Translations under genes and position numbers: made by a program | Assembly: GCA_033297075.1 (NCBI GenBank) | Contig: MU858103.1 | Span: 62,001-126,000 of the forward strand | DNA: 64,000 bases | Origin: Rhypophila decipiens | Taxonomy: Eukaryota > Ascomycota > Sordariomycetes > Sordariales > Naviculisporaceae | Direction of reading: 5' to 3' | The notes under the pieces: model-generated | What the model was told of the DNA's origin: nothing | Seen by the model: the letters and a program-made list of their open reading frames with translations, nothing else | Database searches by the model: none | In this document: positions 20,138 through 63,242 of the stretch, one piece after another | Position numbering within the stretch: the stretch's first letter is position 1 | Layout: each line of letters begins with the position of its first letter

Positions 20138-22463
20138 ATGGTTCTACTCGGTGCCCTCCTCGAGAGGGCCATCGGCTTCCAACATGATGTGACGACTCGA
20201 GAGGCTGCCGCCCAACCTCAGCAGCCAAAACACGTCGTCGACCTCCTCACAATATTGTCGCTCGCTGTCTCATCTATCAGCATCATTGCGACGCTTACTA
20301 CTCTCTACTGGTTTCTCAAGATGAGACGAAGCTTCCGCCATGAGTAAGACTCGGCTCCGACTTGTTCACAAGGCCATTTCTGCTTGATTTGAACTAACGT
20401 AAAGTTGCAGGCTAATCATGTTGTTAATCCAAAGCGACTTTGTCAAATCTGTCGCCTTTTTCGTCTTCCCCATTGTGACGTTGATACGAGGCCCTGTGGA
20501 GTCGAGTTCGCCCTTCTGCCAGCTCAGCGGGTTTGCCCTTGCCGTCGGCATCGAGTCGGCCGACATTGCTGTTTTATTGATCGCCGTGCATTCCGTCATG
20601 TACATCTTTCGGCCCAGATCGGGACTCTACCCCTACCGGCGAACCGCTTACATGATCTACTACCTTTTCCCGTTGGCGATGGGGTGCTTGGCGTTTGTGG
20701 ATGGCTCGGGATATAGGAATGTCGGACACTACTGCTACCTCCGGACCGACAACGGTTGGGCCCGCATGGCGCTCAGCTGGGTACCTCGCTACATCATTGG
20801 AATCAGCATCGTTTTCATATATGCCTTTGTCTACCTTTACGTACGCAAGAGGATGGGCGATTACGGCCGGAGGAGCTCGACGACCATGCCGTACCCGCCG
20901 TCCCCAGGTTACCGAGATAGCGAAGTCCCCCCGACACCCCCGATCGCCTATCATGGCTTGTTGTCCTCGGCTCCAAACTCACGACGCGGGTCAGCTGCAG
21001 ACTCGATTGTGAAGGGACAAAATCGAGGCTCGCTGTCCTCCGTCAGCACTCTCCGGTTGGAGCACGCGCCTAACTCGGGGACCGGAGGGGAGCAAGGAAC
21101 AAAATCAACATCACGTCCGTCACGCGCCGTTCACTGGAACAACAACTGGTCGGGTTTCAGTTTCGACAAACAACCCGGGACATCGTCGGCGGCGCTCTTT
21201 GAGGATGACGAGCAAGATCCGCTCGCCCCAGGTCGGCCATCCATTTCCAGCCCATTACCGGTTCACTCTCCTGCAAACTTGCACCATCGTCAGTCAATAT
21301 CCCAGGATCCGTCAGATACTCTGCCCGCCGCAAGGTACCCTGCTGGCCGACGCGGAAGCCTAAGTACACCTGCAGTGGGCGACAGGTCCTTCATGTCCGA
21401 CAAGAGGGCACGACACGTCTCATTTCCTACGCTTATTCCTCTTGAGGACCGGAGAGGTTCGACCTCGTCAGCGACGAACCTGGAACACAGGTTATCTCTC
21501 CCTTCGACAGAACACACAGAAAGCACCACGGCAAGCTCAACGACGGCCACCTCGTCTACGCTAACCGCAAAGAATGACGTCCAGCCCACCATAGCCCTTC
21601 CCTCGCCGCCCTTGCTCCCTCCACATAGGCAAGCATCCCCGGACCTCGTCGCGACCGATACGTTTGGCGGCGACGACTACGCAGGTGTTACCAAAAACCG
21701 CGAAAAGATACGCCGCCAGCTGCGGTCCTTGATAGTGTACCCGCTCGCCTACATGTTCATCTGGGTGTTCCCCTTTGTGTCTCACGTCATGGGTTATGAC
21801 GACACTTTGAATCCGGCTGACCCGAAATGGCTGCTGGTGGTCAGCTTCATCAGTCTGTGCATCCAGGGGACTGTCGACAGCCTCTTGTTTGCGATCCGAG
21901 AGCAGCCGTGGCGGTATGCCAGGGGCAAGTTCTGGACAGCGGTGGGTAACAGGCTCGGGAGCTACGTGAATTTCTGGGCGCGAGATGCAGGTTGGGGCTG
22001 GAGATGGAGAGGAGATGGCGTGAGGGGCGGTGCTGCAGGACGGACGAGGGAAGAGATGTTGGTAGATGGACGATTGGCCAGAGAACGGAGACAGGAAGAG
22101 ATTATGTTTGAGCGGGCCAGAGCCGGGAGGATTGCTGGTTCGGGAGGCATGGGTGGAGGGTATTTCTCGGGAGCTTGGAATGCGAATGTGATGAAGGGGT
22201 GGACTCGAGTCCCTCGCGGGAGAGGAAGCGTGGACGTAATTGGGATGCCCGCGGCGGTGAAGACCAGGCGGGAGTGGTGGGACGTTGACCCGCTAGATGG
22301 CGCCATGTCGGACGAGGATGAGGACATGAGAATCCGACGTGGTGATGACGATGTTGAGGGTTTTGCTGCGCTTGGATATCGAGATTGCGATGGAAATACC
22401 TCTCCTTCCTCTGGAACCCAGTCCGAGGGTGAAGGACGTCGAGTAAGTCAACCGGCGGGCTGA
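20138..22463 (+). CDS. Git3-type G protein-coupled receptor (glucose/carbon sensing, GPR-4-like)
   Basis: Exons 20138-20343 and 20411-22463, giving 752 residues; the intron GTAAGA...TTGCAG falls within the codon for Glu69. Seven hydrophobic spans are visible: about 34-60, then LIMLLIQSDFVKSVAFFVFPIV, the SADIAVLLIAVHSVMYIF region, YMIYYLFPLAMGCLAF, WVPRYIIGISIVFIYAFVYLY, and after a very long third intracellular loop of roughly 280 Ser/Pro-rich residues, LIVYPLAYMFIWVFPFVSHVMGY and LLVVSFISLCIQGTVDSLLFAIREQPWR. The N- and C-terminal halves match Git3 N- and C-domains. Git3/GPR-4 receptors sense glucose or poor carbon and signal through a Galpha to adenylate cyclase and PKA. The first in-frame ATG was chosen; the frame is open upstream from non-ATG codons. 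Confidence 0.88.
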
Positions 22464-50254: not shown

Positions 50255-52288
50255 CTATTGTGGTTGAATATGGCCATGCGGTGTCTTGTTTCCAGCGTAC
50301 ACCAGCTGATCATCCATGAGGCGCAAGTGCACATGCCCGTCCCCAAGATGGCTGGTCGCCGCACCCATCTGGTTAACAACTGCTCTCCGAGACTCCTCAT
50401 CCAGTGTAAGCATAGTTGCCAGCGTGGAGTTCTTCCAGACTTTTACGCCCATTTTGTTGGTCTCGATGACAGTCCAAATCAGGAACACAGCTACCAAGAC
50501 AATCTCGACTGCAAGAAAGCTCAGCCAGGCCCACCGCACCTCGACTACAGTAGTAGAAACCCATGCAGTGCCCGATATGTCGTGATGCCGGACAGCGATG
50601 GATTCCAATACTCTTTGTAGTGGCGGAGTAGTCTTATGTCAGACAAGGGCTATGTTTTGAAAGATGAGTAGTATGGGAAAACTCACAGCCCGTTTAAGCT
50701 CTCTGTGATGTTTTGGAATAAAGCTCTGGGAGTATCTTTATCCGTCTCCTTGTAGCTAAGAGGATCAAAAATAGAGGCCAGCCTCACAGATGCAAAGGTG
50801 TCCGCACCTTGGTTCGAACTCTGGTTGTCATATGCTGCCATGCTGAACCCCCACCCGGCGAGGTGCCTGGAAAGGCTCTTGGCGATAAAGGTCAGAGTGT
50901 CGCCTCCGATCGAATGACTAGAACCTGAAGTCTTGGACAGAATCTTCAGTGGCGGCGGCACCTGCTCGGTGGAAACATTCGGAGAAGGACGACCACGATG
51001 GTCTTGACAAACGGGATCACCTGTCTTGGATCTGGTGCAAACAAGTGGCCCCGTTCTTGGTTCCATTGCTGAAGGCTCATCATCGTCCCGCCAAAAGTTA
51101 ATCTCGGATGGTGTGGTTTGAAACAGATTTGTGCCATTAGACACGGATATGTTGTAGGTTTTCACGCAGGCGTGGACCAAGACTTCGACCGCTGTAACCT
51201 CATAGTCGGGGATTTGAGACGGACTTATCGGTGATGTGTCCATGTCTCTTGGCCAGTTATTCTTCTGCCAGGCCTGAATGAGCACCCAGTTGAGAATCCC
51301 CATTTGGTAAGGAACTTGATCTTCGGGAAATACTACTGACTTGTTTATAGGGACCAGATAGTAAAACATGTTGAAAGGGCTGGGTAGTGCAACTGAGAGA
51401 ACTGGGGGGATCGAGATGTCAATCCCCGTGGTTGAATTGGACAGCTCTTTAGGCCATGCGTCAATGCTATTGTATGAACTATGAGTCAGATCCTTGATCT
51501 CGTTGACCTGAAGGTGAGATGTTATATCGGCAGATTCCATGCAAATTGAAACCGACTCGAACAGGGGAAAGGTGCAGTCGACAGAAGGACAGTAAATAAC
51601 GCCACTGCCTGGTACCTGTTGCCATGCGTCTTGGTACCGTAATATCTCCTTGATGACTGATTTGTCGATCAGGGCCGCTACATACTTGGGCCGAGAAAGT
51701 TCTTGGGTTTCGGCTGACCAGATTCGGGCCTGAGTTTTCGTTGGCACCAGTTCTGATCGGTAGAATATGACTTCCTGTGTGGCAAGCGACATGATGATAC
51801 TTGTGACGTATATAAAGGCTCCGAGACTCGCCACGTGCTTGAGCCCAGCCTGAACAATAAGGTCCAGCGCGCCAATCAGACTTCTACTTGCCGAATCCAA
51901 GACCAGTAGCCAGCCAACTGATCGTGGACGACCATGGAACCAGTTCCATTTCCATTGCCCGAGCGCCTCGGTGACGGGAACCATGAAGAATCCTTTGGAT
52001 AAAGCGACCAACAGGGTCACGATTGTGTTCAAGTTGAGGTGAAGAGTCAAAGATTGGAGCGGCCGGTTATTGACAACATACAATACCACAGCCATTGCTA
52101 GACGGAGTGTCAGCGAGACAGTCTACAGAAGCCAGAACAAAATATTGTGAGCGGTAGATCCACCGCTTACCAATGAGGCATATTACACTACCAAGCATGC
52201 AAAAGATTTCGATTCTCCAGATTCGGAACAAAGAAGGGTTGGTGTTTTCTCGTCGATTCCTCTTGCAATGGGTGCTCATATCCTCCAT
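50255..52288 (-). CDS. DUF3176 multi-pass membrane protein
   Basis: Exons (minus) 52288-52171, 52097-50687 and 50612-50255, giving 628 residues. Introns: GTAAGC...TCTAG and GTGAGT...CAAAG, with all phases consistent. Hydrophobic spans include the start of exon 2 (AMAVVLYVVNN and LNTIVTLLVALSKGFFMVPV), then the DUF3176 signature GQWKWNWFHGRPRSVGWLLVLDSASRS, a long extracellular-like middle with N-glycosylation-type NST/NGT sites, and a terminal span FLAVEIVLVAVFLIWTVI in exon 3. No biochemical function is known for the family, which is expanded in filamentous ascomycetes. Exon 3 carries the family C-terminal half (KNSTLATMLTLDEESRRAV), so the gene looks intact. An ATG at 52288 was used; the frame upstream is open only from TTG. 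Confidence 0.85.
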
Positions 52289-54608: not shown

Positions 54609-55064
54609 ATGCGATTCTCATTCATCGCAGCTCTTCTCGCAGGCTCTGCCCTGGCCACCCCGGTATGACAAAGTCATTTGCCCGCCCGCTTTCTTTCAGC
54701 AAGAAGCTCTACTAATACCATTGTTCATAAACTCTAGCTCCAGCCGGTAGTCCATGTGAACGCCCACCTCACCAAGCGCGAGGCTGAGGCTGGCCCTCCA
54801 CCCCCGTCCTGGAAGCGTGAAGCGGGCCCTCCGCCTCCATCTTGGAAACGAGAAGCTGAACCTGGTCCTCCTCCGCCGGACTGGAAGCGTGAAGCCGGGC
54901 CTCCACCTCCTTCTTGGAAGCGTGAGCCTGAGCCTGAGGCTGGCCGTACCCCACCTTCTTGGAAGCGAGGACCGCCTCCTCCGGACTGGAAGCGTGGCCC
55001 TCCCCCTCCCTCATGGAAGAGAGAGGCCGCGGCCGAGCCCGGTCCGCCTCCTCCTAGTTGGTAG
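54609..55064 (+). CDS. Candidate RiPP precursor peptide: eight Kex2-bounded GPPPPxW repeats
   Basis: Exons 54609-54662 and 54738-55064 (donor GTATGA, acceptor CTCTAG), 126 residues. Residues 1-18 are a signal peptide (RFSFIAALLAGSALATP). After a short pro-segment ending in KR (31-32) follow eight repeats at 33-45, 46-56, 57-69, 70-80, 81-95, 96-104, 105-113 and 114-126, each ending in Trp followed by Lys-Arg (the last by stop). Repeats 6 and 7 have Gly directly after KR, so the core is a heptamer starting at Gly. The remaining copies have EA, EP or AA dipeptides before it, as trimmed by STE13-like dipeptidyl aminopeptidases. Predicted cores are GPPPPSW x5, GPPPPDW x2 and GRTPPSW x1. Pro and Arg codons vary between copies, so the peptide is under selection. 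The architecture matches dikaritin precursors and, alternatively, alpha-pheromone precursors, but the Cys of sordariomycete pheromones is absent. Confidence 0.85.
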
Positions 55065-55952
55065 TGTGAGAGACACTGGCGATTTGGCCGTTCTTTGATT
55101 AGGTGGCTACTCAATGTCGTGCTCCGTTCTGGTGGGGATGGAGATTGATTTCGCGAGGAATGCTGTTGATGAGGCTTTGAGGGAATTTTCCTTGGTTTTA
55201 CTCTTTTATCCATATTGAAATGATTCAAGTATCTTGGGAGTCATATCGATACTTTTTTGAGGTTCATTTGGAACGAAACATGATGTGATTGATAAATATA
55301 ACTCATCGTGAAGCACTCATTACTGAATAACAATTTACCGTCGATAGAACAGTTCCAAACCTGTATCTGTCGTAAATGCAAGAAACCTGTTTAGCAGTCA
55401 CTTTAAGTACCGGGACTTGGTCCAATATTCAACTTCTCTTTTGATGCTGTAACCTAACCCTAACCCTGACAGCCAACAAAAAAGCGGCCGAAAAGGGGCT
55501 GACCCTAACCCTAAGTTGTCGTCGCCGCCTCAAAGGGTCTTCCATCTTCCAAACGTAAAATACACAACTTTATTTGTATAAAAACGGGATGCAATATGGG
55601 TCTTGATTGAAATTTCAGTCTTGGGAATACAAATGAGTACAACAACGCCACAATTGGTAAACTCGCGTTCCTTCAGCCACGCAGGCGCTCCTCTTCATGG
55701 GCAAGGTTGGTGTAACAAGTCATCTAAGTCAGCAACTCTGGCTTTACTGGATTGGACCCAACAGACGCCCAGTAACAACAGCTTTCGGCACTGCAGCGCG
55801 ACTTCTCCCAGCAGGTCCCCGCCCCAATGTACATATCTGACAGTGGAGGATGACGACCCTATTGTTACAAATACAGGGCACCGCTCCTATTTCCCTCTAA
55901 TTTCTTCACACCTCCTATTCTCCTAGAACAAACAACCCAAACACACCACAAA
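55065..55952. other. Intergenic spacer with interstitial telomere-type repeats
   Basis: About 890 bp with 3' UTR of the precursor, two telomere-like tracts (separately listed) and a TATAAAAA at 55577-55584. No gene. Confidence 0.45.
55453..55514. repeat. Interstitial telomeric repeats (CCCTAA)n
   Basis: Two short blocks, 55453-55467 (CCTAACCCTAACCCT) and 55502-55514 (ACCCTAACCCTAA), lie 34 bp apart. TTAGGG is the telomere unit of filamentous fungi. The repeats are in the middle of unique sequence, not at a contig end. Confidence 0.85.
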
Positions 55953-56760
55953 ATGGCCTCCTCCTCCTCCTCGGCACGCACAGCCGAATACACACTGCTA
56001 CAGAGCTGGACCAAGCAACCGAAAAGCAGTAGTATATCATCCTGGCTTAGAACTGGCCTGCTCCTTTTGGTCTTTACAATCACAACCTTTGTCTCATTTG
56101 TCCTTGGACGGCACTCGGCAGAAATCACCAACTCTTCACAGGTAGAAACCGACACCAACAGCGAGATCTCATGCAAGTCTTTTCCCTTCCCCTCCAAGAT
56201 TATCCATTCGACAACACCAACATGACTGACCCTCTCATCTCGTTAAACCTCTAGTCCACAACCTCCCACACACCTTCGTCTACAACCGCACCTTCTCCGA
56301 AGGAACACACAGAACCGACCAAGCATGGGACGCTTTATTCCCCAAACAAATGGGCTATTTCTCACACCCGCAGATCGCCCACGGACACAGGTCGACCTTT
56401 TCCGTCTATCACTACTTGCACTGTCTGAATGGGATTCGTCAGGGTTATTGGGCTGTCTACGACATAGCTACCCAAGAAACTTCTACTTCTCAGGCTCGAG
56501 GTACTCATGGCCATGGCAAGGAGGATAAGGGAACAAAGAAGATTCTGGACATTCACAACCTTCCCATGATGATCTCGCCGTCGCATGTCAGGCATTGTAT
56601 CGACCTGCTGAGGCAGAATCTCATGTGCAATGCTGATTTGACGGTCGAGGTGAAGGATGATAAAGCTGGGGGCGTGCATGGGTTCGGGACGCAACATCAG
56701 TGTGTTGATTGGGAGGAGCTGGGTGGTTGGGTTGGGGAGTGGGAGCACAAGAGGGACTGA
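55953..56760 (+). CDS. DUF3328/UstYa-like protein (candidate RiPP oxidase) 1
   Basis: Exons 55953-56172 and 56255-56760, giving 241 residues. The intron uses a GC donor (GCAAGT) with CTCTAG acceptor; no GT donor gives a joined frame. A short cytosolic N-terminus is followed by one transmembrane anchor (about 31-51, LRTGLLLLVFTITTFVSFVL) and a lumenal DUF3328 domain (FVYNRTFSEGTHRTDQAWDALFPK, 82-104). The two family HxxHC motifs are intact: HYLHC (His126, His129, Cys130) and HVRHC (His184, His187, Cys188). Family members in ustiloxin, phomopsin, asperipin and epichloecyclin clusters form the crosslink on core peptides and sit in the membrane. It lies about 890 bp from the precursor; role by context. 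Confidence 0.88.
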
Positions 56761-56852: not shown

Positions 56853-58501
56853 CTACTCTTGCTCCAAAACAACCTCAATCACAGCCATAGGCGACATGCC
56901 CCCAGCACACCTGGTAACGCTCTTAACCCCGAGTCTCTCATCCGCGCGCTTGATCACAGCGCCCCACTGCTCTTCGTTGCGCTCTTTGCTATCAAACATG
57001 GCCATCATAGCCAGGTCCTGCCGTCGCATCTGTCGCTCTATGTATCTGCTCGGCGGACCTCCCCCAGCTGGACCATTACCATCAGAGGTCGCTGATGGCA
57101 GCAGCCCAGAAGGTGGAGGAGGTCCAGGGACAACCAAATCATTGATCAAAATCCTCCCCTTCTTCTTCCTCTCCAAGGCAGGCACCAACCCCCTCAAAAT
57201 CCTCACACAATCCCCATCACTCCAATCATGCAACACCATTCTCAAGAAATACACATCCGCGTCCAACCAGACAGGCTGTTCAGAAAAGAAATCATGGTGC
57301 ATAAACTCTACAATCCCGCTCCTCTTGGAATCTGTCGTCTCTGTCTTTTTCAAGTCCAAATCCTGAACGACAATCTTGTTCAAGATGGTATCCCCATGTT
57401 TACTAGCAGCCAAGGCATGGGCAAAGTCCCCATTCTGCCCGCCACCCACGTCTACCACTGTCAGTTTTGTTGTTGAGACAAGACCTGCCCAGTCGTACGC
57501 CTCCAGTGCGGCGGTTGCGTCGAAACCTGGCATCATGTTTTGCATTACCGACATGGCGTTGCCGAAGCGTGCCATTCTCGCTGGTTGCTTGCGGAGAGTG
57601 TCAAAGAAGGTGACGGTTGTTTGTTCGGCTAGGTTATGGCCTGTTAGTGTTGTTACGGGCTGGGGGGCAGTACGGCCGCTACTGGCAGGCTGCTGTGAAG
57701 ATGATTTGGCGTTTTCATGATTGGTGGTCGTCTCAGATGGTGGTGTAATAGAGTTACTAGTACTATTGTTCAAGTTGTTTTGCATGATTGCGTGCACGAC
57801 GTGTGGTGCTGATGGCCACATGTCTTCACATGCTGAGCCGATCCTGTTTTCACAACTTGTCAGCTTCTATGGGTGGTTAGGATGGGTGTTTGAGTGTTTC
57901 GTACCAGTAATACAGTCCCGGGACCTGGGCTACCATGGCTGACAGCGCCGTGTGCGACACTGGGCCGCCCGGGGACTCTTGAAGCAGTAGATAGTTGGAA
58001 ACGGCATGCTGCATCAACCGGGTCATCTTGTCCTCCGAATCGGCCACGGTGCCCTTGTCAACTCCTTCTCCAGAAGCGGAAGAGACACAGAGCTTGGAGA
58101 GTGCCCTGATGGGAATCTTGGACCCTACTGGGAATTTGGAGGGGACCTTGTAGCGGTACATGGCATGCAGGCTTGCAAGGTCAAACTGATTGTTTTGATT
58201 ATTAGTCTCTCGACAACTTTGAATGATGTTGAATAATGGAGGAGTAACGTACGGCATGTCCAATTTGATTCAGGAGCCAGCCCATAGGCCCCATCAGGAG
58301 GGCCGTCAGCTCATCCAGGCTTGAGAGTGCCATCTCCAGAGACTTCTCGACCTCTGGGGACAGTGGCAGCTTGGGCGGTGTTCCCGGGTCGAATGACGGG
58401 CTAGGGAGTCCATTCTCGTGAAGAAAGCTCTCAAGAATGGTGGTATGTTCGAGGATGGACGATGCCAGTTGGACGGTACGAGGCTGAGGAGCAGGTGACA
58501 T
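56853..58501 (-). CDS. COMT-type O-methyltransferase 1 of the RiPP locus
   Basis: Exons (minus) 58501-58253, 58185-57905 and 57843-56853, giving 506 residues. Introns: GTACGT...AATCAG (gactaat branch) and GTACGA...AACAG; joined frame reads PGLYYW|IGSACEDMW. The N-terminal 200 residues are the dimerisation domain of plant COMT-like enzymes. SAM motif I is VVDVGGGQNGDFAHAL, the Asp motif is VVQDLDLKKTE, and the catalytic His is in MVLHDWSDGDCVRIL. A Pro/Gly-rich insertion (GPPPPSGLLPSATSDGNG) interrupts the usual VVPxPG...RQDL region. Such enzymes methylate hydroxyl or amino groups of natural products. It lies between the two DUF3328 genes. Confidence 0.9.
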
Positions 58502-59701
58502 TTTGTCGTGATTACTGTCATCAGCTCTGTGTGGAGTAGAAATACAAAGAGTTTAGACAGGAGTGATGACCATCAGAGACTCGGATCAACTAGGAAAGGG
58601 GCGAGTCAACTACATCTTTTCGGCCACAGTCCGGGGCATCGCAGAGACCCTGAAAAGGAGCCGTCGATTCGGCCAACAGTCGGTTCTACCCCGCTCCCAA
58701 CCTGCCGTTGGGCCAGTCCAGGATATCTCCATGTCCGGTGCGCTGATGCTTATCCCCGTTGCGTTGTTTACTTGCCTGCATGCAGTGAAGGATCCGGACT
58801 GTGTCGCCTGTACGACTGACGCCGACGGCACAGTTCACGAGTCAGATACGAAATACGCCCGTACGTCTAACTCGCAGCATATGCAACCCTACCTCTTCGC
58901 ATTTTATCTTTGTAATGTCTTAGAAGATGCCACCAAGAAACACATCACGCTCGTTGCCGCAAGCGTGCTTATCCTGAATGTTTTGGCCCCATTGATTAAG
59001 TAATGCTGCCGGCAAGTAAACAATCCGAGTCGCCCAGTAGCCATGTCTGCCGCTTATATCCGGGGACACTTGTTGATGTAAGATGGAGCGGCTGGGCCTG
59101 CACGGCGCCTTTGTGTCACCATGCGCGGACCAGTAAGCTGAGGATATTCAGAGGACCGGTCCGAGGCGTATCTCCGTGCCGCCTGGGGATCCTAAGTATC
59201 TGGGCCTCTAGGTCAATGACTTTGACCCAATCCACGCCATCAAAATTGGCTATGATTCGTTGAAGCTGCTGCCGGCCAAGAGACCTTGCGTAGTACGTAC
59301 GTGGCTGGATGCAACACAAATGTTGCCGCAGATCCCGAAGAGTTGAGATAATCATTAGTGCACTTATAACCATCTTCGGGTCGTTGCCGCGAGGGCACAT
59401 GTTTCTCCCGCGCCGCAGCGACGGTTCCAAGATAAACGGGCGGCGGCAGTCCACCACCTTCCCGATTCTAGGGTCATGGATGCATAAAGGAATCAGCAGG
59501 AGGGTGGTTGATCAATTAATTTGGCCGAGGTTACTAGAGATACCTCGGTGGGTAGTAACAACTAGTCGATCAACTACCAAAGGACGCTACATGTGCCATA
59601 TCGCTGCATACCCATGCCTCTCCTACCACCACCCACAACTAAGACAGCTGATAACCATTGAGCTGAGTTGCAAATGAACCATGATTGCAAACAACGCACC
59701 C
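58502..59701. other. Spacer between methyltransferase 1 and the second peptide gene
   Basis: About 1.2 kb. It contains the methyltransferase promoter and an open frame (58563-59003) that is doubtful. Nothing else recognised. Confidence 0.4.
58563..59003 (+). CDS. Doubtful ORF in the cluster, 146 codons
   Basis: Open from ATG 58563 to 59003 with a hydrophobic middle and C-terminus (MSGALMLIPVALFTCLHAV, HITLVAASVLILNVLAPLIK). I recognise no family, and it lies in the leader side of methyltransferase 1, so it may be chance. Kept at low confidence because it is long for a spacer and because small proteins are typical here. Confidence 0.2.
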   Translation: MMTIRDSDQLGKGRVNYIFSATVRGIAETLKRSRRFGQQSVLPRSQPAVGPVQDISMSGALMLIPVALFTCLHAVKDPDCVACTTDADGTVHESDTKYARTSNSQHMQPYLFAFYLCNVLEDATKKHITLVAASVLILNVLAPLIK

Positions 59702-59943
59702 TTAATCGTCGGTGTAGAGGTCGGGGTAGATGACGCCCGAGTCAGGGTCAGGCTCAGGGTAGACGACGGTGTCGTCAACATCAGGTTCGGGGTAGACGAT
59801 CAAGTCGTCCAGATCTGGGAGTCGTCAGGAATAAGAACGAACGGATATCTGCGTGCGTGAAAAGAATACTTACCCTTGGCCACCGGAGCGGCGAGCACGC
59901 CCATGGCAAGCGCCAGGGAGAGGAAGAAGGCGGTAGCCTTCAT
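59702..59943 (-). CDS. Candidate second precursor: tiny secreted acidic (V/I)YP-repeat peptide
   Basis: Not a long ORF; found by reading the minus strand. Exons 59943-59874 and 59814-59702 (donor GTAAGT, acceptor TCCCAG, a cctgacg branch-like site), 60 residues. Residues 1-19 are a signal peptide (KATAFFLSLALAMGVLAA) followed by PVAK. The mature part of about 37 residues is very acidic and contains three repeats: LIVYPEPD, VVYPEPD and VIYPD, with a fourth Tyr in DLYTDD. No Lys-Arg sites are present, so processing would differ from the first precursor. Tyr-Val-Ile-Pro-Asp-rich cores recall phomopsin-type peptides. It lies between methyltransferase 1 and DUF3328-2. Alternatively it is an unrelated small secreted peptide. 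Confidence 0.7.
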
Positions 59944-60522: not shown

Positions 60523-61408
60523 ATGTCAACAACAGAGAATAAATCTCTCCTCAAGGAGGGCATTGGCTATTCTGACGATACCGACAGTAACAGCTCTCAC
60601 CATGATGAACAGAACGAGCATGGCCACGTCAAACAACAACGCTATCCTCCCCTCAAGTGGTGGGTCTACGGCGGTCTGATCCAAGTGATCCTCATGGCCA
60701 TTTACACCGTCATCGCTCTCGAAATCATCCAAGCCTCTACCTCGACCACCTACGGCGATGCCCCCGACATCCACGGCAAGTATTCCCCCCTCTCCACCCA
60801 ATAATACTGAAACTGATACTAAACACCCAACTGTTCCACGTACAGCTTTCCCAGGCCTCATAGTGCGCTACAAATTCCGCCTCTACGACAACTTCATAAA
60901 CAGCCCCTACACGGGCGCCCCGACCCCAGAAAGCGACCTGGCATGGCACAACCTGCTGAATAACATGTCCATCCGCGTCTCAGCATCCGAACTAGCAGCG
61001 CATAACCAAACGAGCGTAGCCCTCCCCAACGGCGGGTACCTCGCCTGGCTGGGCGTCTTTCACGAGCTCCACTGCGTCAAGATCCTTCGCCAATGGTCTC
61101 GGCGTGATCATTACTTTCCTGAGTGGGAGAATGCAACTCTGCACGAAAAGAATCACCAGATGGTGCATATTGATCATTGTATCGACTGGCTGAGGAATGC
61201 GGCTGTCTGCCGGGCGGATACAAGTGCGTTGGCTGTGTTTAAGTGGGACAAGAGGATGCCGCATCCTATGCTGAATACGAAAAGGGTTAATCATCGGTGT
61301 GTGGATTGGGATATGTTGATGGAGAGTCCCGGGCATAGGGAGAGGGTGGTTGGGAAAGATGAGGTTGTTGGGTTGAAGAATCCGCTGATGGAGCATCATG
61401 ATGATTGA
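60523..61408 (+). CDS. DUF3328/UstYa-like protein (candidate RiPP oxidase) 2
   Basis: Exons 60523-60775 and 60846-61408, giving 271 residues. The intron again has a GC donor (GCAAGT) and TACAG acceptor, joining DIH|AFPGLIVRYKF in the same phase and the same place relative to the anchor as in DUF3328-1. A basic N-terminal tail and one transmembrane anchor (about 46-68, WWVYGGLIQVILMAIYTVIALEI) precede the lumenal domain. Both HxxHC motifs are intact: HELHC (His157, His160, Cys161) and HIDHC (His192, His195, Cys196). The N-x-T/S sites at NMS, NQT and NAT fit lumenal glycosylation. It differs enough from DUF3328-1 to act on another site or peptide (inference). Confidence 0.88.
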
Positions 61409-61748: not shown

Positions 61749-63242
61749 TCACTTCTTCCTCCCAACCTGAATAACGGAATCAAGCCTACCAGGGGCATAC
61801 GTATCGACCCTCAGAATCTCCAACCCAGCACGATCCAACAAACTCTTCCACTCGCCGCTCGTCCGCTCCCTAGACCCCAAGCTAGCCATCATAGTCAGAT
61901 CAATACTCGCCGCCTGCCACGGAACACCTTGATCAGGCAAGACCATCTCGTCAATCAAGATCTGCGACTGCGGTCCAAAAGCCTCCTTCAATCTCGCCAA
62001 AATCTCCAGACACTTGTCATCCGGCCAGTCATGCAGGATATTCCGCAGGTAATAGAACCTCGCGCCCTTGACAGGTTGCTCCGTAAAGAAGTCATGTTCC
62101 TGCACCTTTACTCCGCTAGCGTCAAGCCCGCCCTTGAGAGGGGGCGGGAACATGGCTATGGTCTGGGGCAAGTCCTGCAAGACCAGCTTACCGCCGCCGA
62201 GTTTCTCGCCGCCAAATGCACCCATCAGACCGAGGCATTGGTGTCCGAAGCCTCCGCCTACGTCGACTAGTACTGTCTCGGGGGTAGAGGAAGAAAAGGC
62301 ATGTTCGGCAAAAGGAAACGCAACAAACCACGGCGCCGAGGCACCCGCCCCGTTGACGGTCATGACCTGCTGCAAGTGGCCGAAACGCTCAGGCTGGGTG
62401 GGCAGCCACATGAAGGCGGGCAAGGGGCCTGCTTCGGGAAAGGCCTTTTGGAAGGCGGTGGCGCTTGCTGAGGTGACGTCCTGGTATTTGGTCTTTGCGA
62501 GGAAGTCGGGAAGAGCTTGGAAGACGGGCCCGACGTTGTCGAAGAAGTGGTATATCCCGCCTCGGTAGCCTGGTTCGGCGAGGGTCTTGGTCAGCTTGTT
62601 GGCGGTGAATGTCCCGGTGCTGACCTCGGTGATTTGGCCGACTGAGGCGAGGTACCGTGCTAAACGGCCTGATCATGGTGTGTCAGTGGGATGTATTGTT
62701 TGGTTGACCTAGGTGTGCAGTGCGCGGGGGGGGGGGGGGGGGGGCCTGCCGGTCTGCGTGTAGGCCGCCGCCATCATAGGGCGTCCCCTGGCCTCCGGTN
62801 NNNNNNNNNCGCGCCCGCCCCCCCCCCGCCCGGGGAGGGCGGGGCCGCGCCCCGGCGCCGCCCCCCCGGCGCCCGGCGCGCGCCCCCGCCCCCCCCCCCC
62901 CCCCCCCCCCCCAGACTGATCAGCAAAGGGGCTGCGCCGGTCTTGGAAGCGAGCTCCTCGACGGTCAGCGGGTTGGCGGCGCTGGAGAGCGTCTCAAAGA
63001 GCTTGAGGTCCTCGCCGATGCGAGCCGCTGTGATTTCGAGATGCTGTCATCACTGTCAGTCTGTGATCTGGGACCGAGATGGTTGGTTGTGAGAGACTTA
63101 CAAGTCCAGCAAACCGATTCAGCGAGTCGGCCGGCGTCTCGATGCTCAGCTGGAGGTCTCGCAGAGCGTTGAGCAGCTTGATGCGGCCATCATCGCCGAC
63201 TTTGGTCGCGAGAGTCCGGAGTTGCGCCAAGATGGTGTCCAT
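61749..63242 (-). CDS. COMT-type O-methyltransferase 2 of the RiPP locus (interrupted by assembly gap)
   Basis: Exons (minus) 63242-63102, 63043-62911 and 62659-61749, about 394 residues if the gap is intronic. Intron 1 is GTAAGT...GACAG. Exon 2 ends in APLLISL at a long C/G homopolymer and the donor cannot be read; exon 3 starts at ARYLASVGQI after GTTTAG. SAM motif I is VLVDVGGGFGHQCLGL, followed by LVLQDLPQTI and the catalytic His in ILHDWPDDKCLEIL; the product end is DSVIQVGRKK. Homology and frame suggest one gene, but 10 N (62800-62809) and low-quality GC blocks lie inside the intron, so the exon 2/3 border is inferred. It belongs with methyltransferase 1 as a tailoring gene. Confidence 0.75.
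62726..62744. repeat. Poly-G tract (19 bases) inside methyltransferase 2 intron
   Basis: Nineteen G, with the N gap and a GC-only block following. Sequence quality is doubtful. Confidence 0.8.
62800..62912. other. Assembly gap and low-quality GC-only block
   Basis: Ten N at 62800-62809 followed by about 100 bases of almost only C and G ending in a run of over 20 C. This is not typical of the surrounding DNA and indicates an unresolved region. Confidence 0.9.

Follow-up and report, generated by a model that had tools for sequence, protein, structure and literature searches.

Structure and sequence of the KEP precursor gene

In the window, by which we mean the whole 64,000-nucleotide stretch of Rhypophila decipiens DNA analyzed here, a two-exon gene on the forward strand at positions 54609-55064 encodes, once spliced, a 126-amino acid precursor of the Kex2-processed repeat protein (KEP) class that is predicted to be secreted. 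Exon 1 (54609..54662) was read from the sequence as a signal peptide, MRFSFIAALLAGSALATP; a GT-AG intron of 75 nt (54663..54737) links this signal peptide with the open repeat frame; and exon 2 (54738..55064) comprises a short pro-segment followed by eight heptapeptide cores set between Lys-Arg and X-Ala/X-Pro dipeptides. The first-pass annotation had placed the gene correctly but had left the intron inside this span unmentioned. Its claim of a signal sequence agrees with the hydrophobic N terminus, which we judged by reading the sequence.

The spliced product holds the same eight cores that had been counted in the first-pass annotation, namely five copies of GPPPPSW, two of GPPPPDW, and one of GRTPPSW, where KEPs are recognized by at least three similar repeats with dibasic borders. 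Lys-Arg precedes all eight cores, with a spacer in between for six of them, and follows seven, while the eighth terminates at the stop codon, so the earlier description of Kex2-bounded repeats holds. As had also been noted, every core ends in Trp (8/8), and cores 6 and 7 begin with Gly directly after Lys-Arg, which settles where the core begins and that it is seven residues long. Neither Tyr nor Cys occurs in any of the eight. The spacers before cores 1 to 8 are, in order, EAEA, EA, EAEP, EA, EPEPEA, none, none, and EAAAEP, and all 12 of their dipeptides are X-Ala or X-Pro.

In the DNA, three overlapping repeat families were seen, with copies that match their reference copies at 61-85%. Comparing the cores in all 28 pairs (196 pairs of codons) gave 24, 24, and 115 differences at the first, second, and third codon positions, and the codon differences divided into 100 synonymous and 26 nonsynonymous. 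This excess of synonymous and third-position changes indicates that the peptide is conserved more than its DNA, as had been proposed. A DNA pattern for PPxWKRE gave six matches in the 45.7-Mb genome, five of them inside the KEP gene, and none in a reversed control; at the sixth match, on contig C33, reading revealed no repeat protein. The repeat array is far beyond chance. Pattern GGNCCNCCNCCNCC was dropped as a genome probe, since its 386 matches fell below the 488 of the reversed control, making it uninformative.

Searches of NCBIfam (E up to 0.1) and Pfam returned nothing for the KEP precursor, and the protein search did not return it as an annotated protein, unlike the product of the neighboring UstYa2 gene. 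This lack of annotation would suit a structural or cell wall-associated secreted protein, or a low-expression relic, from which no bioactive peptide is released. The 100 synonymous against 26 nonsynonymous differences among the cores, and the intact frame and splice sites, argue the other way, and we hold this explanation to be very unlikely.

The UstYa and O-methyltransferase neighborhood

On the same strand, 888 bp past the KEP stop codon, starts UstYa1, a DUF3328 gene at 55953..56760 (+) whose product, in our model (exons 55953-56172 and 56255-56760), carries HYLHC and HVRHC motifs. Between the two genes lie three telomere-like CCCTAA units (at 55458, 55503, and 55509; region 55458-55514). 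A second DUF3328 gene, UstYa2, is located at 60523..61408 (+), with exons 60523-60775 and 60846-61408 and motifs HELHC and HIDHC; its product is identical over 271 residues with an NCBI Rhypophila decipiens protein, and NCBIfam (E up to 0.1) returned nothing for it. GC-AG introns with the donor GCAAGT were modeled in both UstYa genes (56173-56254 and 60776-60845), and the UstYa2 model reproduces the NCBI protein exactly. Two O-methyltransferase genes (Methyltransf_2) were found on the reverse strand: gene 1 at 56853..58560, its N-terminal exons read by eye, and gene 2 at 61749..63242, likewise read by eye, the limits of both being approximate. Gene 2 contains an assembly gap (N at 62800-62809) with homopolymer flanks; the surrounding stretch (62720-62920), made up of a G run, the ten N, and C/G-rich sequence, looks like an assembly artifact that breaks the gene. 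Two UstYa and two O-methyltransferase genes lie within 9 kb beyond the KEP gene, and the DUF3328 neighbors that the first-pass annotation presupposed are present.

Just past O-methyltransferase gene 2 is a fungal rhodopsin-domain gene (L056:430-2152, +), which may mark the distal limit of the cluster. DUF3176 genes occur to either side (at window 50686-52122 and at L056:4490-6805), and a gene for a Git3-type G protein-coupled glucose receptor lies at window 20403-22460 (+). Pfam was scanned with 27 of the 157 window ORFs of at least 110 aa and with 8 of the 31 right-flank ORFs of at least 150 aa, and no tyrosinase was found among these.

Profile searches gave 67 UstYa matches in the genome, and 0.34% of the genome lies at most 1.5 kb from one, so the proximity of the KEP gene to UstYa1 is unlikely to be accidental. 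In a crude scan of 30 UstYa-match loci (drawn from the 67 matches, with some loci overlapping), a Lys-Arg-bounded repeat occurred only at the KEP locus. Both results favor a dikaritin-like RiPP, as do the position of UstYa1 next to the KEP gene on the same strand and the presence, inside 9 kb, of two UstYa genes with paired HxxHC motifs and two O-methyltransferases; together these are the strongest support for the first-pass reading. UstYa1, with or without UstYa2, would then oxidize or cross-link the Trp or Pro of the heptapeptides and an O-methyltransferase would decorate them, giving a new cyclic or otherwise modified Trp/Pro chemotype in a cluster with two precursors. Published type P-3 KEPs, with Trp and Pro in their repeats and DUF3328 genes near four of seven members, point in the same direction (PMC7329392). 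DUF3328 genes are reported to accompany 22% of KEPs and about 30% of those in Ascomycota (PMC7329392), and they are also described in print near 17 of 76 KEPs that share homology with the STE13-type KEPs of basidiomycetes; given these rates, the linkage may mean modification in Rhypophila too. By the figures given in PMC7329392, however, cores linked to DUF3328 genes show no enrichment of Trp (20.5% with versus 24.5% without). The KEP precursor, moreover, has STE13 spacers, a signature that PMC6339444 reports as absent from dikaritin and epichloecyclin precursors, and its cores contain no Tyr and nearly match one known as an unmodified peptide. On balance, we regard a UstYa-modified heptapeptide as possible but unlikely.

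A second small secreted peptide beside UstYa2

Between O-methyltransferase gene 1 and UstYa2, 4.6 kb from the KEP gene, we found a gene for a second small secreted peptide of 60 aa, MKATAFFLSLALAMGVLAAPVAKDLDDLIVYPEPDVDDTVVYPEPDPDSGVIYPDLYTDD, on the reverse strand at 59702..59943 (exons 59943-59874 and 59814-59702), which diverges from UstYa2 across a 579-bp gap. The peptide is Tyr-rich, contains three YP(E/D) repeats (LIVYPEPDVDD, TVVYPEPDPDS, and GVIYPDLYTDD), and has no dibasic/Kex2 site. Neither NCBIfam (E up to 0.1) nor Pfam returned anything for it, and no further copy was found in the genome. VYPEPD was absent from the text of the literature searched, an occurrence of IYPDLY was unrelated, and those of YPEPD were unrelated among the matches listed, as judged by titles and the starts of abstracts. 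Among six cluster genes, 14 shared promoter 9-mers were counted, against a null mean of 2.4 and a null maximum of 89; as these come mostly from the single promoter region of the second peptide and UstYa2, we claim no coregulation with the KEP gene.

Of 13 candidates in a protein search with the second peptide, nine were returned as matches, and one of these, from Rhypophila sp. PSN 637, is identical. The other eight are 59-84% identical over 62-100% of the query and come from Lasiosphaeria, Podospora didyma, Echria, Xylaria, Rosellinia, Parahypoxylon, and two further sources, genera which we take to belong to the Sordariales and Xylariales. An alignment of the nine proteins showed 25 invariant positions within the final 37 of the peptide and not one in the first 23. 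Five of the eight homologues have a longest contig equal in size to that of a UstYa2 homologue (6970587, 3990345, 4140511, 32040, and 6727), and in Parahypoxylon the homologues of the second peptide and of UstYa2 have consecutive locus tags, AAE478_008742 and 008743. Lasiosphaeria has homologues of both on longest contigs of unequal size, and Xylaria and Rosellinia had no UstYa2 match among the 44 UstYa2 homologue proteins. When UstYa1 was compared with these 44, identity reached at most 27% among the eight matches listed, with no UstYa1 orthologue among those.

This pairing across species suggests that the second peptide is a substrate of UstYa2, and it seems a better candidate substrate for the cluster UstYa enzymes than the KEP; the UstYa and methyltransferase genes more likely act on it. 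The same comparison tells against modification of the heptapeptides, although for UstYa2 only: its homologues occur in species where no GPPPPxW relative was found, though short unannotated genes may hide there, and are paired in those species with the second peptide. Two of the KEP relatives described below (from Macrolepiota and Termitomyces) belong to genera other than those of the second-peptide homologues, and none of the three is on an equal-sized longest contig; because short genes often go unannotated, the absence of the KEP from the second-peptide species is weak evidence. UstYa2 and the second peptide make up a conserved pair; as far as is visible from sequence comparison, the KEP is a lineage-specific neighbor. 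The first-pass annotation missed this second conserved, precursor-like peptide, which seems to fit the UstYa enzymes better.

Both peptides could instead be substrates in one cluster, with UstYa1 and an O-methyltransferase modifying the Trp/Pro heptapeptides and UstYa2 modifying the YP(E/D) peptide, an arrangement we think quite improbable. If true, the heptapeptides would be STE13-trimmed, Trp-centered UstYa peptides, and the second peptide would represent a new UstYa substrate class common to Sordariales and Xylariales genera. The second peptide is probably the more novel feature of the window and a more interesting lead than the KEP. The locus also illustrates a trap in fungal RiPP mining, where a KEP beside UstYa genes is taken as the substrate although a conserved mini-peptide, rich in Tyr and free of Kex2 sites, lies nearby; mining based on KEPs would be expected to miss this second peptide, which tracks UstYa2 across species.

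Processing of the heptapeptides and comparison with known systems

The explanation we favor, and consider probable, is that the KEP gene encodes a precursor of linear, Trp-ended heptapeptides processed by Kex2, Kex1, and Ste13, an ascomycete addition to a known kind of peptide. The signal peptide would take the precursor into the secretory pathway, Kex2 would cleave after Lys-Arg, a Kex1-type carboxypeptidase would trim the Lys-Arg to expose the C-terminal Trp, and a Ste13/DPP-type enzyme would take off the X-Ala/X-Pro spacers. Enzymes of the DPP-IV type are not known to cut X-Pro where the next residue is Pro. Trimming would thus be expected to halt at the core, where Gly-Pro-Pro is predicted to be a poor substrate, guarding the core from the very enzyme that strips its spacers; in core 5, Gly-Arg may serve likewise. 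The products would be a secreted mix of linear GPPPPSW, GPPPPDW, and GRTPPSW, most probably without cross-links, that may have an extracellular role in signaling or in biotic interactions, which is also the role supposed for Trp-ended Agaricomycetes peptides. The processing steps, linearity, secretion, and function are all inferred. Candidate processing enzymes were sought in the genome by profile: P_proprotein (Kex2-type) had one partial match (profile positions 1-58 of 86), interrupted by a single in-frame stop that an intron may explain, and DPPIV_N matched twice over its whole profile, in frames that stay open for 933 and 816 aa.

X-Ala/X-Pro spacers are a published STE13 signature of alpha-pheromone precursors, and the first-pass annotation had raised a divergent alpha-pheromone as its main alternative. 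It was right about the architecture, since the signal peptide, Lys-Arg sites, X-A/X-P spacers, and C-terminal Trp of the KEP precursor are alpha-factor-like, and the genome has one match to the STE2 receptor family, without stops. The identity itself is a different matter. At G000:C19:94887-95546 we found a precursor in which ten WC[NH]KPGQPC repeats follow a signal-like N terminus, nine of the ten then continuing with Lys-Lys-Arg or Arg-Arg, with spacers rich in X-A/X-P. By its motif, this gene is likely the alpha-pheromone precursor of Rhypophila decipiens. Ascomycete alpha-pheromone precursors, including this one, have a signal peptide, Kex2 sites, and X-Ala/X-Pro spacers as the KEP does, but the WC[NH]KPGQPC core differs from the Cys-free GPPPPxW core, which lacks the two Cys, and is encoded by a separate gene. 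A GQPC-type two-Cys core is one published ascomycete alpha-pheromone type, and the Pleosporales core differs. Published pheromone KEPs are rarely near DUF3328 genes (3/216), and the Pfam scan of 27 of the 157 window ORFs (at least 110 aa) showed no mating gene. An alpha-pheromone identity of the KEP gene was therefore rejected, and we consider a mating pheromone precursor, or a duplicate recruited to mating, extremely unlikely. The likely pheromone gene elsewhere weakens this alternative and does not thereby prove the RiPP one.

The alpha-pheromone motif behind our first genome patterns was WCxxxGxxCW. With Trp required after the second Cys, the first pattern gave 15 matches (reversed control, three), of which ten were read in frame, none of these ten being a Lys-Arg repeat protein, and the second gave no matches (reversed control, three). 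A looser pattern gave 233 matches (reversed control, 144), with the ten clustered copies on C19 among about the first 100 matches listed. Each of the ten WC[NH]KPGQPC copies of the C19 gene (L062, G000:C19:94401-95900) is followed by Phe, where other Sordariales alpha-pheromones have Trp.

Dikaritins such as ustiloxin, phomopsin, and asperipin-2a resemble the Rhypophila KEP in that both have secreted Kex2 repeat precursors with UstYa genes nearby. The Tyr of the dikaritin core, the site of ether cyclization, is missing from the KEP cores, and the KEP precursor, unlike a dikaritin's, is not free of STE13 spacers. A further difference is that the window and right-flank ORFs scanned with Pfam (27 of 157 and 8 of 31) include no tyrosinase. 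In the work of Umemura in 2020 (PMC7329392), a Trp/Pro type of KEP, P-3 (#165), is described in which W is accompanied by P, with members in Ascomycota and Basidiomycota (Fonsecaea, Cladophialophora, Galerina, Psilocybe, and Coprinellus). Type P-3 and the Rhypophila KEP are alike in their W and P repeats and nearby DUF3328 genes, a likeness drawn from the description of the type.

Our search for relatives, in which 7992 candidates sharing the most words with the KEP precursor were scored, returned three proteins (P0001, P0002 from Macrolepiota, and P0003 from Termitomyces), all with repeated Trp-[KR]R units. Their E values of 7e-9 to 4e-5 and identities of 38-46% extend over short low-complexity repeats. 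Repeats such as GPPGWKREPEPEA, GPPPPWKREAEA, and NPPSWKREP are like the GPPPPxW array, but with cores that are shorter or varied, and the likeness of GPPPPxW to mushroom peptides could have arisen by convergence, the motif being short and of low complexity.

Basidiomycete systems are among the closest known. PMC9769878 reports that many basidiomycete KEPs combine STE13 motifs with a C-terminal Trp, a combination also seen in the Rhypophila precursor, where every spacer dipeptide and every core end conforms and two cores are spacer-free. According to the same paper, QMRPPSW and QYKAPSW from KEP 490115 were released in Pichia with STE13 trimming, AADW types are also among the Trp-ended cores, GPPAPSW from KEP 447393 is a secreted peptide that LC-MS/MS detected in the supernatant of Coprinopsis cinerea, and the peptides are described as linear and minimally modified; neither UstYa nor DUF3328 is mentioned in its main text. 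The string GPPPPSW was absent from the main text of the literature searched, and PPPPSWKR and PPPPDWKR did not occur in those main texts either, so the exact peptide appears unreported as far as main texts go. With GPPAPSW, other Trp-ended cores, and type P-3 KEPs already known, and STE13 spacers speaking against a dikaritin, the new RiPP chemotype proposed in the first-pass annotation is unsupported. The near-identical unmodified mushroom peptide suggests that the KEP product is probably of the signaling type rather than a new chemically modified natural product. The Rhypophila KEP would then be an eight-copy, apparently unannotated ascomycete addition to the Trp-ended peptides of STE13-type KEPs. 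STE13 trimming is reported for Coprinopsis KEP 490115 and predicted here from the X-A/X-P spacers, and the GPPAPSW of Coprinopsis cinerea and the GPPPPSW described here, both heptapeptides with a C-terminal Trp and with Kex2 processing that is predicted for GPPPPSW, differ at one of seven residues.
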